55,379 bases of DNA from Chitinophagaceae bacterium. Its GTDB lineage: Bacteria > Bacteroidota > Bacteroidia > Chitinophagales > Chitinophagaceae. This document shows positions 8,802-55,379 of this stretch, one piece after another. Position numbers and translations under genes: made by a program. The DNA is taken from assembly GCA_903642275.1 (NCBI GenBank), contig CAHJWK010000016.1, positions 1-55,379 of the forward strand, read 5' to 3'. Below the pieces are notes generated by a model. It was not told the origin of the DNA. It saw nothing but the letters and a program-made list of their open reading frames with translations, and ran no database searches. How positions within the stretch are numbered: the first letter of the stretch is position 1; each line of letters starts with the position of its first letter.

Positions 8802-8843
8802 AATAAAACTAACTTGTTTTTCATTCTAATTAAATGCAGATTC

Positions 8844-8872
8844 ATTTTATTTAAATGAAAATTAAATAAAAT
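8844..8872. repeat. Perfect inverted repeat, 11-bp arms
   Basis: ATTTTATTTAA and its exact complement flank the loop ATGAAAA. It lies about 45-70 bp upstream of the HTH-like gene start. Composition is almost pure A/T, so chance is a real possibility. Confidence 0.5.
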
Positions 8873-8888
8873 ATACTGAATATCCATT

Positions 8889-8940
8889 ATTTTAAAATGT
8901 AATTCAAAGATAAATAGTTTGAATTACCATATTTTAAAAT
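8889..8940. repeat. Nested dyad with 10-bp arms flanked by two copies of ATTTTAAAAT
   Basis: GTAATTCAAA (8899-8908) and TTTGAATTAC (8918-8927) are exact complements around a 9-nt loop. The self-complementary decamer ATTTTAAAAT stands on both sides (8889-8898 and 8931-8940). The whole block is symmetric over about 52 bp, like an operator or a mobile-element remnant. Confidence 0.55.
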
Positions 8941-9084
8941 TAAAATACTATATAACTGGGTTTATTCGCCATATAATTATATGTAATTACCACCTAAAAT
9001 AATGTAAATGCCAGTAAAATAAATGTATGCTGATGTATATTTTACTTCCTTCAAATCAACAAACAAAACAAGCAGTAGTTTAAA

Positions 9085-15597: not shown

Positions 15598-17847
15598 TTA
15601 TTTTTTTGTTTGAACAGAAGCGGTAATGTGCATCTCTGTATTATTTTTTGAGACTGATACAGGTTTCTTGTTATAAAGCTGTGCAAGTGTTGGTGCAATA
15701 ACCAACGAAACAATACTCATCAATTTAATAAGAATATTCATTGAAGGACCAGACGTGTCTTTAAACGGATCACCAACGGTATCTCCTGTTACAGAAGCTT
15801 TATGCGGCTCACTCTTTTTGTAATACATCTGACCGTTTATTTCAACACCTTTTTCAAAACTTTTCTTTGCATTATCCCAGGCGCCACCGGCATTATTTTG
15901 AAAGATGCCCATTAAAACCCCGCTCACTGTTGCACCGGCTAAAAAGCCACCCAAAGCTTCAGGTCCTACAAGAAAACCAATAATTAAAGGGGAAAGAATT
16001 GCAATGGCACCAGGCAACATCATCTTTTTAATAGACGCTTCTGTTGAAATAGCAACGCATTTTTCGTATTCAGGTTTGCCTGTGCCTTCCATAATTCCTG
16101 GAATAGTTCTAAACTGGCGGCGCACTTCTTCAACCATTGCCATAGCTGCTTCGCCAACAGCACGGATTGCCAGTGAAGAAAATATAAATGGAATTACTGC
16201 GCCTACAAATAATGATGCTAACACTTTCGCCTTATAAATATCAATGCCGGCCATTTCATATCCGTTATGATTTATTACACCCACATAAGCTGCAAACAAC
16301 GCTAATGCTGTAAGCGCCGCAGATGCAATGGCAAATCCTTTACCAGTTGCAGCAGTTGTATTTCCAACAGCATCCAGCACATCTGTTTTCTCACGCACAT
16401 CTTTTGGCAACTCGCTCATTTCTGCAATACCACCTGCATTATCTGCAATCGGTCCAAATGCATCAATAGCTAATTGCATTGCAGTTGTTGCCATCATACC
16501 TGCGGCTGCTATTGCAACACCATACAAGCCTGCGCATGTATAAGAACCCCAGATACCTGCCGCCAAAACCAATATAGGCAGTAGTGTTGATTCCATACCT
16601 ACAGCCAAACCACCAATAACATTTGTTGCATGGCCTGTTGCTGATTGCCGTATGATTGATTTTACAGGGCCTTTATGCATAGCCGTGTAATGTTCAGTGA
16701 TTATGCTCATTAAGGTTCCAACAGCAAGGCCAACCAATATAGCACCTAACACACCACCACGTGTTATGGCAACTGCACCTTTTACAATCTGATCAGGATT
16801 ATTAAGAATAAAATCTCTTCTTAAATAAATGGGTGTATCGGGCAAAATGTAATAAACCAATGCAGCACTGGCAATTGCTGTAAGTATAATTGAACCCCAA
16901 TTACCCATATTTAAAGCCTTCTGTACATTAGCTGTATTTACACCTGCACTATCACTCACTTTTACAAAGAAGGTTCCTACAATTGAAAATAAAATTCCAA
17001 CACCTGCTATAAGCATTGGTAAAAGAATAGGAGCATAGCCTCCAAAATTATCTGTAGAAACTGCTTCCTGGCCAAGCACCATCGTTGCCAAAACGGTTGC
17101 TACATAAGAGCCAAACAAATCGGCGCCCATACCTGCAACGTCGCCTACATTATCGCCTACATTATCTGCAATGGTTGCAGGGTTACGCGGATCGTCTTCA
17201 GGAATACCTGCTTCAACTTTACCAACCAAATCAGCGCCTACATCTGCAGCTTTAGTATAAATGCCACCACCCACACGGGCAAACAATGCTATTGATTCTG
17301 CGCCCAGAGAGAAGCCTGTAAGTATTTCAATGGTCTTCACCATTTCTTCAGAGTTAGGGTTAGCGCCTGGTGCAAAAATGTGTTTCAATACAATAAATAC
17401 GGCACTTAAACCCAGCACCGCCAAACCTGCCACGCCTAAGCCCATAACTGAGCCGCCGGTGAAAGAAACCTGTAAAGCTTTTGATAAGCTTGTTCTTGCA
17501 GCCTGCGCCGTACGTACATTGGCTTTGGTTGCTACCTTCATGCCTATAAAACCCGCGGTTGCACTGCACACGGCACCGATTATAAAAGCAATGGAAATTG
17601 ACCAATGAGAGTTTGGATTGCTATGTGCCATTATACCTAATAAAAGTGCAACAATCACTACAAAATAACCGAGTATTTTCCATTCAGCTTTTAAAAAAGC
17701 CATTGCACCTTCAGCAATATATTTACTGATGGTTTTCATGTGATCAGTGCCGGCATCCTGTTTATTAACCCAACTAAATTTTATTAATGTGTAAAGCAAT
17801 CCGATAATGCCGGTAACCGGAACGAGCAGAAATAAAGTTCTAAGCAT
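15598..17847 (-). CDS. hppA: Membrane-bound ion-pumping pyrophosphatase, K+-dependent type
   Basis: 749 residues with about 16 membrane segments. The substrate-binding signature is complete: [40 protein letters not shown] and the second Asp-rich site near [16 protein letters not shown]. The segment [10 protein letters not shown] has Ala where K+-independent enzymes carry Lys (GNTTKA), which marks the K+-dependent class; many of these pump Na+, some H+ or both. It couples pyrophosphate hydrolysis to ion export, useful under low energy. The pumped ion is inference. A good promoter candidate lies 29 bp upstream, and beyond it the phased palindrome array. Confidence 0.94.
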
Positions 17848-17875: not shown

Positions 17876-17907
17876 CAAAAATAGGGGAATTGCTTAATGT
17901 AGAGAAA
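17876..17907 (-). promoter_or_regulatory. Likely hppA promoter
   Basis: On the minus strand TATTTTTG (17883-17876) fits the Bacteroidota -7 box TAnnTTTG exactly. Twenty bases upstream is TTTC (17907-17904), one mismatch from the -33 TTTG. The start of transcription would be about 17870, giving a leader of roughly 23 bases before the hppA ATG. Confidence 0.45.
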
Positions 17908-17944: not shown

Positions 17945-18230
17945 GAAATCCAGATAAGATATTTGAATTATGTCGAATTGGCGAACTAAGCCGATATAAA
18001 GTGAAATCAATTTATAGAAAGTGAGCTCATCCGGCGCGAAAAGAACTCACTTTGCAAAAAAGTGAGTTCATCCAAAATAAAGTGAGTTCATTTTACAAAA
18101 AGTGAGCTCGTCCAGCATAGAATGAATTCAGTTTGAAAAAAAGTTGGTTCGTCCAGCATAAAATGAACTCAGTTTGAAAAAAAGGTGAGTTCATTCATAG
18201 AAAGTGAGCTCAGAAAGAATGAAACGGTTC
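17945..18230. repeat. Phased array of about 15 short palindromes, 20-bp period
   Basis: Units start at 17945, 17965, 17983, 18003, 18023, 18043, 18064, 18084, 18104, 18124, 18145, 18165, 18187, 18206 and 18225: steps of 18-22, mean 20.0. Nine units carry the self-complementary hexamer GARYTC exactly (GAGCTC, GAACTC, GAGTTC or GAATTC), most within TGARYTCA; the outer units and 18145 are degenerate. The spacers are AT-rich and differ, except that 18101-18141 and 18142-18182 are a 41-bp tandem duplication (about 36 of 41 identical). Two helical turns per step puts all dyads on one face of the DNA. Confidence 0.85.
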
Positions 18231-18262
18231 GAGAATCTTTCATAATTATATTTACTTATTTT

Positions 18263-19086
18263 ATGCAAAACGATTTAACCGAACAGCTACGTGAAACAAC
18301 GGCTTATATCAAAACAAAATATAAAAACAAACCCACTGTTGCTGTTATATTAGGAAGTGGGCTTGGAAATTTTACCCTTGAGCTTGAAACTGAATTAGAA
18401 ATTAATTACAGTGAATTACCTCACTTTCCGGTTAGTACGGTTGTTGGCCATAGCGGTAAAATGATTTTTGGAAAAATGCATGGAAAAGAAGTGGTTGTTA
18501 TGGCAGGCAGGTTTCATTTTTATGAAGGTTATTCTGTGCAACAGGTTGTTTATCCAATCCGTGTTTTGAAATGCTTGGTGTGCAAACATTATTAATATCA
18601 AATGCCGCCGGCGGTGTGAATGCAAATTTTAAAGTTGGCGACCTGATGATAATTACAGACCATATCAGCATGTTTATCATCAATCCTTTGCTTGGTAAAA
18701 ATGAAGATTCGCTGGGAACCAGGTTTCCTGATATGAGTGAACCTTATAGCAAAAAACTCATCAGCAAAGCAAAAAAAATTGCCCAACAATCCGGGTATGA
18801 TTTAAAGGAAGGTATTTATTGTGGTGTAACAGGGCCAACATTTGAAACGCATGCTGAATATAAATTAATAAAAATTATTGGCGCAGATGCTGTTGGCATG
18901 AGCACGGTGCAGGAAGTTATTACAGCCGTTCATGCCGGTATGCGCGTTTTTGCAATGAGTATAATTACTGACGTGGGCATACGTGAAGAAGATAATAAAA
19001 TTACGCATGAAGAAGTATTGGCTGCTGCTGCAGAAGCAGAACCAAAAATGACCGCGCTGTTTAAAGAATTGATTGCTCAACTTTAA
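18263..19086 (+). pseudogene. Purine nucleoside phosphorylase with a one-base frameshift
   Basis: Two overlapping frames together give a whole PNP of about 274 residues. The first (ATG at 18263, MQNDLTEQLRETTAY) has the phosphate-site VILGSGLGNF, VVGHSGKM and AGRFHFYEGYS, and runs out of frame after VYPIRVLK at 18571, stopping at 18595. The second resumes exactly with MLGVQTLLISNAAGGVN and contains GPTFETHAEY and AVGMSTVQEV. One missing A in the AAA at 18569-18571 explains everything (RVLK-MLGVQ). PNP cleaves purine nucleosides with phosphate in salvage. All else is conserved, so this is a recent mutation or a sequencing error. Family type I (trimeric PNP) by motif. Confidence 0.88.
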
Positions 19087-53366: not shown

Positions 53367-55379
53367 ATGAAATCAAAAATTTACACGGTGCTTTGCGCAG
53401 CACTTTTTTTATGCGCAAACTTTAAAAGCTTTAGCCAGGCTAATACCAGCCTTTCTAACCTTGCTGCTAATACAGCAGTTAATCACAGCCTTGTTCCCGG
53501 CACATCTAATTTTGTTAGCCTGGGTTCAAGTTCCATCACATGGAAAAGTCTTTACCTCGGTGGCATCATTTACATCAATGGTGCACCATCACTTTACTCA
53601 CCTTTAAACTCCAATAGTTTTGGTGGTTATAATGCAGGCAGTTCAAGTGTTACCGGCATTTTTAATACGGCCTTTGGTTCGCAGGCTTTAAGAAGTATTA
53701 CTGCAGGTGGTGCCAATACTGCTTTAGGTTATAATGCTTTGTATAATAACACTGCCGGTTATTCTAACGTGGGCATTGGTGTGGCTGCTTTATATAAAAC
53801 CACCACTAACAATCATCTTGTTGCTATAGGCGATTCTGCGCTTTATTTTAATACTGATGGTGCACGAAACACTGCTATAGGTTCACTTGCTTTGTATAAA
53901 AACACAATAGGTGATAACAATACCGCTGAAGGCTATGAAGCACTGTACGCAAACACTACAGGCGCAAGTAATATCGCCGCAGGCTTCCAGGCATTATATA
54001 CTAACACAACAGGAAATAATAATGTTGCTAATGGTACAAAGGCATTGTACCTGAATACATCCGGTTATTCAAACATAGCATTTGGTATAAAAGCATTATA
54101 CAGCAACACAACCGGTAACCAATCTATCGGCATTGGTGATTCTGCTTTATATTTTAGTACAACGGGTAATAACCTTGCCATTGGCAGCAAAGCTTTGTAT
54201 AAAAACGTAACCGGCAATTATAATGTCGCGATTGGTTATCAAACCTTATATAACAATACAGCCGGCTTAAATACGGGTGTTGGTTATCAGGCATTACTTT
54301 CTAATACTACAGGTTATTATAATGCTGGTTTAGGTTACCAGGCATTGTATGCTAACACTACGGGCGGTTATAATACCGGTACAGGATTGTATGCTTTACG
54401 CAACAATACCACAGGAGGTGATAACACTGCTAACGGAACATTTGCACTGGAATCAAATACCACAGGCAGCAGCAATACTGCTTATGGAACGCTTACAATG
54501 GAGAATAATACAACAGGTAACGATAATACTACTATTGGTTACGCAGCAGCCATTTATAACAACATTGGTTATAGTAATGTTGCCATTGGTACGCATGCTT
54601 TATATTTAAACACTGTAGGCAGCAACCTGGTTGCTATTGGCGATTCTGCTTTATATAATCAAGCTGCCGGAACCTTCTATGTTAATACAGCAGTTGGCAG
54701 CAAGGCGTTATATACAAACACTACAGGTTATTCCAATACGGCTACAGGTTACCTTGCTTTAACAAACAATTCTACAGGCGCTTATAATACAGGGTTAGGC
54801 GGCTTTGCGCTTACGTCTAATTCTACCGGTTCTAATAATACAGCGGTGGGATTATCTGCACTTTATGCAAATACTACAGGTTATGGTAATACGGCGATAG
54901 GTGATCAGGCACTCCGTAACTATGCTACCGGTACTGATAATACAGCACTTGGACAAAGTGCTGATGTTAACCAGGAAGGATTAACCAATGCTACTGCAGT
55001 TGGATATGATGCAATTGCTACAGCCAGCAACCAGGTTATGTTAGGTAACACTTCTGTAACAGCTGTTGTTGCAGCAGGAAGCACTTATCTTTATTCTGAT
55101 GGCCGTTATAAGAAAAATATAAAAGAAAATGTGCCAGGCCTTGAATTTATTAAACAATTACGCCCTGTTACTTATAATTATGATATACACGGAATGAATG
55201 ATAAAATGGGCATAACAAATCTGCAAAATAAAGAAGTAAAAGCTGGTGCTCAATCTTCTGCAAAAGTCTCAGCATCTGATAAAGCAAATCAAGATGCCAT
55301 CACTACAAAAGAAAAAAAGATATATACAGGTTTTGTAGCACAGGAAGTGGAAGCAACTGCTAAAAAATTAAATTATGAT
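53367..55379 (+). CDS. Secreted repeat protein with S74 intramolecular-chaperone domain, 3' end missing
   Basis: The frame is open from the ATG at 53367 (MKSKIYTVLCAALFLCANF) to the window end, 671 codons and no stop. Signal peptide 1-23. Residues 24-106 are a leader (NTSLSNLAANTAVNHSLVPG). Residues 107-531 (53685-54959) are 25 tandem units averaging 17 residues, pattern ALYxNTTGxxNTAxGxx, like YadA/Hep_Hag head repeats. From about residue 576 the peptidase S74 chaperone begins (SDGRYKKNIKENVPGLEFIK, YTGFVAQEVEATAKKLNYD). Such proteins trimerise and cut off their C-terminal chaperone. Probably a surface adhesin or fibre; phage origin is less likely because it has a signal peptide and no phage genes nearby. 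Confidence 0.88.
   Translation, partial: MKSKIYTVLCAALFLCANFKSFSQANTSLSNLAANTAVNHSLVPGTSNFVSLGSSSITWKSLYLGGIIYINGAPSLYSPLNSNSFGGYNAGSSSVTGIFNTAFGSQALRSITAGGANTALGYNALYNNTAGYSNVGIGVAALYKTTTNNHLVAIGDSALYFNTDGARNTAIGSLALYKNTIGDNNTAEGYEALYANTTGASNIAAGFQALYTNTTGNNNVANGTKALYLNTSGYSNIAFGIKALYSNTTGNQSIGIGDSALYFSTTGNNLAIGSKALYKNVTGNYNVAIGYQTLYNNTAGLNTGVGYQALLSNTTGYYNAGLGYQALYANTTGGYNTGTGLYALRNNTTGGDNTANGTFALESNTTGSSNTAYGTLTMENNTTGNDNTTIGYAAAIYNNIGYSNVAIGTHALYLNTVGSNLVAIGDSALYNQAAGTFYVNTAVGSKALYTNTTGYSNTATGYLALTNNSTGAYNTGLGGFALTSNSTGSNNTAVGLSALYANTTGYGNTAIGDQALRNYATGTDNTALGQSADVNQEGLTNATAVGYDAIATASNQVMLGNTSVTAVVAAGSTYLYSDGRYKKNIKENVPGLEFIKQLRPVTYNYDIHGMNDKMGITNLQNKEVKAGAQSSAKVSASDKANQDAITTKEKKIYTGFVAQEVEATAKKLNYD
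53685..54959 (+). repeat. 25 tandem 51-bp coding repeats
   Basis: 1275 bases equal exactly 25 units of 51 bp (17 codons), although units 10 and 12 are one codon short and unit 20 is two codons long. Protein consensus ALYxNTTGxxNTAxGxx. The variant GDSALY recurs at units 3-4, 9-10 and 19-20, hinting at duplication of larger blocks. Confidence 0.85.

Follow-up and report, generated by a model that had tools for sequence, protein, structure and literature searches.

An array of short dyads stepped by about two helical turns lies between a hppA-like gene and a purine nucleoside phosphorylase gene (PNP), divergently transcribed in a 55,379-nucleotide stretch of a Chitinophagaceae genome (hereafter, the window; gene names are those of the original prediction). 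On balance, we favor the view that this array belongs, as a decayed example, to a class of intergenic minisatellites specific to this species and grown by local copying, both direct and inverted, with a step set by the DNA helix. The feature to be explained is the step of ~21 bp and not the letters GARYTC.

The periodic array spans positions 17996–18225 (no strand assigned) and comprises ~11 units of ~20 bp with a higher-order period of 41 bp, as judged by TRF, a scan for self-matches (lag 41), and an alignment of oriented units. Unit positions and array ends were fixed by eye; the 11 hand-placed units have their centers at 18005–18208 and a mean spacing of 20.3 bp (range 19–22). TRF returned periods of 41 and 81 over 17996–18194 with 71–75% matches, so the internal duplication of ~41 bp that had been proposed is real. 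The oriented alignment resolves the unit as AAAGTGAGYTCATCC, present eight times in + orientation and three times inverted; apart from these 3 of 11 half-units, the array consists of head-to-tail copies of one unit. Units in + orientation are seen at 18018–18032 (AAAGTGAGCTCATCC) and 18059–18073 (AAAGTGAGTTCATCC). An inverted unit, the reverse complement of AAAGTGAGTTC, occupies 18043–18053 on the − strand, and a predicted fold places it in an 11-bp pairing with the next unit. Two consecutive composite units of ~41 bp, each a unit plus an inverted unit, were recognized at 18099–18180 (+ strand) from the sequence and the TRF period of 41. The left flank of AAAGTGAGYTCATCC is better preserved than the right; the unit is therefore not a bare palindrome. 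Pairwise identity is 0.78 in the core TGARYTCA versus 0.55 in the flanks. Because units are inverted, the predicted RNA fold of the + strand is strong (z = −7.1; − strand, z = −3.8). A search of Rfam with the array gave no match at the gathering score (three matches of 27.7, 20.1, and 18.2 bits against 80, 56, and 62).

The original prediction covered a longer interval of 286 bp and counted fifteen dyads 18–22 bp apart, which does not hold for its left portion (17945–17995). There, one-mismatch hexamers are scattered without periodicity (those at 17945, 17965, 17975, and 17983 are spaced 20, 10, and 8 bp), and the periodic portion begins near 17996. The excess of exact hexamers, on the other hand, was confirmed. 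Nine copies of GARYTC occur in the 286 bp (18023, 18043, 18064, 18084, 18104, 18124, 18165, 18187, and 18206), far above the 0.087 expected at the rate seen in noncoding DNA of this genome, as sampled over 400 kb (17 per 56,162 bases; Poisson P ∼7e-16). No similar density was found in other intergenic DNA: no 286-bp segment of that sample has more than three copies. Elsewhere in the window the hexamer is scarcer than expected (10 on the two strands combined, versus 55 predicted from dinucleotides and 40 from a higher-order model), which makes the genome's own rate the better yardstick. Against this GARYTC-poor background an array with nine copies is odd. GGRYCC is also scarce in the window outside the array (2 seen versus 21 expected from dinucleotides and 6.5 from the higher-order model), and words containing CTAG are likewise under-represented there. 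Judged from such word counts, restriction avoidance is a possible cause of all three scarcities.

The hexamer had been described as self-complementary and as present in all four forms. The four forms that GARYTC covers map onto one another under reverse complementation, but only GAGCTC (three copies) and GAATTC (one) are self-complementary; the remaining five of nine cores are GAACTC (two) and GAGTTC (three), the first being the second flipped. All four forms do occur when orientation is ignored. Fewer remain once the 11 units are oriented by their flanks, with AAAG to the left: GAGTTC (five), GAGCTC (three), GAATTC, GAAATC, and TGGTTC (one each). Covariation of the half-sites was not observed at the central pair (four Watson–Crick pairs versus 3.7 expected, P = 0.51). 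A search of the genome for the pair pattern GTGARYTC-N10-16-GTGARYTC returned three occurrences, every one inside the window array.

The array sits, as predicted, between the divergent hppA and PNP. The hppA-like gene (15598–17847, − strand) has congener matches 80–91% identical over the first 299 amino acids or part of them. Bacteroidota-type −7 boxes have the consensus TAnnTTTG; that of hppA (TATTTTTG, 17876–17883, − strand) is in the same place in all five congeners read. PNP (18263–19086, + strand) is split into two frames, 18263–18595 and 18571–19086, and is preceded, just downstream of the array, by an altered −7 box, AATCTTTC (18234–18241, + strand). Six congeners have TATCTTTG before PNP (three, and then three more by eye), and in the six matching congeners PNP is an open frame of 276–303 amino acids. 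A second PNP match on another contig of this genome is weak (46% identity). PNP may be decaying in this genome as a pseudogene, or the frame split may be an assembly error.

The expectation that the array would be kept in close relatives was not borne out, since none of the hppA or PNP regions that were read, from six congeners, contains it. The order hppA–PNP is present without the array in G006, G002, and G004. In G007 the two genes are on separate contigs, in G005 they are ~2.5 kb apart, and in G001 PNP was found alone; the array was not found in the upstream pieces of hppA or PNP read from these three. Whole fetched congener pieces contain one GARYTC (L007), none (L008, L009, and L010), or two (L012). 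The hppA–PNP gap of G002 (L009) carries another short repeat, with direct copies of CTTCGATATAA followed by inverse ones.

Many further arrays of this genome keep the step and differ in sequence. We scanned the window and 60 further stretches from 20 contigs (1,249,460 bases of a 4.29-Mb genome, drawn from long contigs) for self-matches at every lag from 10 to 70 in 126-bp windows, using a threshold of 0.58 that was set after a first pass at 0.60; ORFs of at least 150 amino acids were marked as a crude mask. The scan gave 31 periodic loci, including 21 noncoding rows. Nineteen of these 21 have a period of 21 (five rows), 41 (one), 42 (ten), 43 (one), or 63 (two); the other two have periods of 11 and 14. 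As L340 contributes two rows for a single array, the arrays number 18; that of period 41 is the window array, and the weak ones, winB, L343, and L350 (0.59), are close to the threshold. Extrapolated from 18 in 1.25 Mb, the whole genome would hold ~60 if the sample is fair. Comparisons among 19 arrays reported below include L285, which an ORF had masked in the scan and which was added by hand; L284 and L234, within long ORFs, were left out. The window also contains a weak, very A+T-rich stretch with a 42-bp period at 8823–8948, near two genes that are ~1.2 kb apart here and whose orthologs in G004 are ~0.1 kb apart. Three further stretches at 53888–54834 have a 51-bp period and are absent from the noncoding list; loci with a 51-bp lag in this genome and in G007 fall within long ORFs.

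The same lag scan of three congeners, G007 (478,989 bases), G004 (262,659), and G006 (102,078), gave no rows at these periods in 843,726 bases, a sample of arbitrary contigs that amounts to ∼2–10% of each genome, with one genome per species, and comes from short-read assemblies, which can lose repeats. The only noncoding periodic row in these samples has a period of 14. If rates were equal, the probability of finding all 18 arrays in one genome would be 9e-5, or 2e-4 without the two arrays of the window. No periodic array was found before the G007 ortholog of the gene to the right of array L290.

Similar arrays occur in a second genus of the family, g47. Four arbitrary stretches (37.7 kb) of G250, a genome chosen since a pattern search had shown array L046 in it, contain noncoding arrays of period 21 (three) and 37 (one), together with a 21-bp array that overlaps a long ORF and a 54-bp repeat in coding sequence; two arrays, of 22 and 21 bp, lie in L046. 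In G203 (40 kb, with stretches placed at matches to the transposase and SbcD searches) we found noncoding rows of 42, 43, 43, and 21 and one ORF-overlapping row of 21, and in 39 kb of G053 no such arrays. Two of the three genomes sampled in this genus therefore have 21–22-bp arrays. Dyads were detected in 0/8 rows of G250 and 3/5 of G203 (3/13 together), and the two-turn step is thus more widespread than the dyad. Mixed GTDB contigs (861,702 bases, with 300 bp around the search pattern excluded) gave eight noncoding rows with periods of 10, 18, 20, 21, 24, 27, 42, and 65, and those of 21 and 42 both came from one Bacillus contig. The breadth of this lag spectrum indicates that the sharp peak at 21/42 is not general. 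Outside Bacteroidota, noncoding 21/42-bp repeats of TTTACTCGTGAATTTGCACTA are seen in Bacillus sp. ISL-34 (L169), and four Peribacillus loci (L117, L141, L143, and L184) have GARYTC, mostly GAATTC, spaced by 19–21 bp and multiples.

Most arrays share no unit. An all-against-all comparison of the 19 revealed just three related pairs, L224/L271, L280/L285, and L290/L340. Their matches lie inside the arrays, with none in ~1 kb on either side except one of 16 bp; homology stops near the array edges, and no common leader or tail was seen. The pairs L224/L271 and L280/L285 are in opposite orientation. Whole-genome searches were made with three arrays. At E ≤ 0.001, the L224 array matched four loci and the L280 array two, and the window array gave one genome match, being a single copy. 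The pattern AAAGTGARYTCATCC with up to three mismatches has 376 matches in the whole genome versus 189 for the reversed pattern; we do not treat these as sites. Among 394 genomes of the family, a two-copy GTGARYTC pattern is present in 64, and overlapping consecutive pairs among the matches listed occur in G000 (the genome of the window), G250, and G341 only. Four two-copy places were viewed: two are gene-like sequence (L043 and L044), one is a single pair (L045), and one is a 22-bp array (L046 of G250). The window array itself had short, weak matches in 14 other family genomes (best E = 4e-4) in a search that scored two candidates per genome. A three-copy pattern was found in at least 118 stretches of GTDB contigs and in 34 viral stretches, and in none of the richest 70 of these at least 152 loci do the four GARYTC forms all occur within a single cluster.

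Dyad symmetry was probed by matching every array to its reverse complement, with controls in which columns were permuted alike in all units. It was detected in 14 of the 19 arrays (P ≤ 0.05), including the window array (P = 0.002, the floor of the test); L224, L236, L271, L290, and L332 were no better than permuted controls. Covariation of dyad pairs, measured in 17 arrays (the window array and L332 were left out), did not exceed slid controls, with a paired-cell excess of 144 versus 106–145. Further pair types numbered 91 versus 53–80 in the slid controls, yet these came from 391 pairs versus 203–277. Because covariation is no better than in slid controls, the dyads appear to be inherited from the founding sequences rather than maintained by compensatory change.

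Gaps are few within the 19 arrays (30 versus 690 mismatches, a ratio that lacks a local control). The arrays lie in 11 tandem, 7 divergent, and 1 convergent intergenic gaps, such that 18 of 19 are upstream of at least one gene start; intergenic gaps of at least 150 bp in the sample are tandem in 168 cases, divergent in 84, and convergent in 51. This placement leans mildly toward a promoter role. Six of the 19 arrays show AA/TT phasing at ~10.5 bp (combined P = 8e-6), and the window array shows none that is significant (P = 0.25). Central units are more alike than edge units in 12 of 19 arrays, with a mean difference of 0.03 that is not clear. Upstream position, few gaps, and AA/TT phasing would together lean toward a structural role, none of them being decisive.

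Several other origins were considered. A protein-coding origin of the window array was rejected, as each of the six frames contains 4–11 stops. Mismatches at lag 41/42 are spread evenly over codon positions in most arrays and unevenly in L227, winB, L236, L237a, and L284; some arrays have stop-free frames or overlapping short ORFs, and for these individually coding may still apply. A REP/RAYT system does not account for the window array, which is a single copy in a genome (96% complete) with no match to PF01797 (Y1_Tnp). That transposase is present in six of seven congeners (2–6 each) and in all three g47 genomes. Loss of the hairpin nuclease SbcD does not track the arrays; among 11 genomes, a match to this nuclease scored above the cut-off in G250 only. 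Neither the phage nor the plasmid collection gave a match. Covariation as proof of selection on the dyads was negative in the window array and in 17 others.

Taken together, the data support the first proposal in that the array is phased and non-random, carries dyads at intervals of about two helical turns, and grew by copying. They speak against selection for one protein that reads GARYTC dyads, given that covariation is lacking, congeners lack the array, and the other arrays mostly have unrelated units. An operator array in which a putative dimeric regulator binds GARYTC or TGARYTCA cooperatively and controls both hppA and PNP was the original interpretation, and we regard it as improbable. 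Nine sites where 0.087 are expected, a core more alike than its flanks, and the position between two promoters are what such a regulator would leave. Its dyads, however, would be asymmetric in five of nine cores and without covariation at the central pair, and its pair pattern would be confined to one locus. The array is missing at this locus from three congeners that retain the gene order and the hppA −7 box, and PNP, one of the two supposed targets, is split in frame and preceded by an altered −7 box; nor would such a regulator explain a class of arrays with an equal step and other sequences. We would give as little weight to the arrays being bodies of small non-autonomous, MITE-like mobile elements comparable to BrickBuilt of Porphyromonas gingivalis. 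Units common to different loci without common flanks, an intergenic location, and absence from the congener samples fit this idea, whereas the scarcity of shared units (three related pairs among 19), homology that ends close to the edges of the related arrays without a visible common leader or tail, and the lack of a Y1 transposase (PF01797) in this genome do not.

An architectural or dimeric DNA-binding system on one helix face, which reads phase and dyad shape rather than sequence and bends or bridges promoter regions, would account for a period of 21/42 across mostly unrelated sequences, for dyads in 14 of 19 arrays, and for few gaps, AA/TT phasing in 6 of 19, and location upstream of a gene start in 18 of 19. 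We nevertheless think it rather unlikely. Its dyad pairs do not covary beyond slid controls, AA/TT phasing is not significant in the window array, the arrays of another genus represented by G250 show no dyad in eight rows, one array lies in a convergent gap, and absence from the congener samples makes the system probably dispensable for the genus. Growth by copying with a helix-set step, which we judge somewhat probable, agrees with 18 arrays of period 21, 41, 42, 43, or 63 in this genome and none in the three congener samples, with related pairs that match inside the arrays and hardly in the flanks (two of the three oppositely oriented), and with dyads that do not covary. It agrees as well with the window array being interrupted by stops in every one of its six frames and with an hppA–PNP order that persists without the array in three congeners. 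Four observations sit less well with copying: edge decay, its usual mark, is weak; few gaps may mean that phase is under selection; 18 of 19 arrays are upstream of a gene start; and the window core is more alike than the flanks. A broader proposition, which we hold as a tentative minority view, is that this species, and a second genus of the family, have a dedicated process that makes or keeps intergenic arrays with a 21-bp step, often with a dyad per step and with little common sequence. It would involve either an enzyme that duplicates DNA with a stagger set by the helix or an architectural protein that reads phase.

According to the copying model, an array would be founded by a short local sequence, often one able to fold back, and would lengthen through tandem copying, two helical turns (21 bp) or, often, twice that (42 bp) at a time. 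Some copies would be inverted through template switching at the dyad, and an array or unit would occasionally be copied to another locus. Our best guess is that the 21-bp step comes from break-and-fill-in or from slippage, with a stagger set by the helix. No protein would then be dedicated to binding GARYTC in the window array, and hppA or PNP would be affected, if at all, probably incidentally, through the distance and structure between two promoters. If the wider interpretation is true, these arrays constitute a sequence-free class of regulatory or structural DNA. The arrays pose the testable question of whether the unit length of bacterial minisatellites is set by how they are copied or by proteins that sense helical phase, and the presence of the class in one species, against its absence from the samples of three congeners, provides a way to map the cause.

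The repeat classes with which we compared these arrays are defined by sequence; here, the constant is the length of two helical turns. In the open-access literature we recognized no description of a class of sequence-free arrays with a 21-bp step. Plasmid iterons are direct repeats of ~20–22 bp on one helix face that are bound by an initiator; unlike these, the arrays are on chromosomal contigs and have many different sequences. REP elements are extragenic palindromes of 20–40 bp whose neighbors are often oppositely oriented (PMC3733652), and the arrays resemble them in being extragenic and palindromic with often inverted neighbors. They differ in that the REP elements described there form dispersed one-sequence families, part of them tied to RAYT, whereas this genome has no Y1 transposase and its units are mostly locus-specific. 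The TAACTGA heptamer repeats of Beggiatoaceae, Cyanobacteria, and five Bacteroidetes are likewise intergenic, present at many loci, and patchy between species, and in one genome lie mostly just upstream of start codons; they consist of one fixed heptamer, and our arrays have little common sequence and a two-turn step (PMC4679880). The closest described thing is BrickBuilt of P. gingivalis, a minisatellite within a MITE that consists of 23-nt intergenic tandem units without spacers (PMC4596501). It is species-limited, with 19 copies in ATCC 33277, a repeat number that varies between strains, and reported promoter activity (PMC4596501). Both systems belong to Bacteroidota, are intergenic, and have a unit of about two helical turns; BrickBuilt has one unit sequence with a leader and a tail, whereas the arrays described here have locus-specific units, no common ends that we could see, and a period of 21/42 (PMC4596501).
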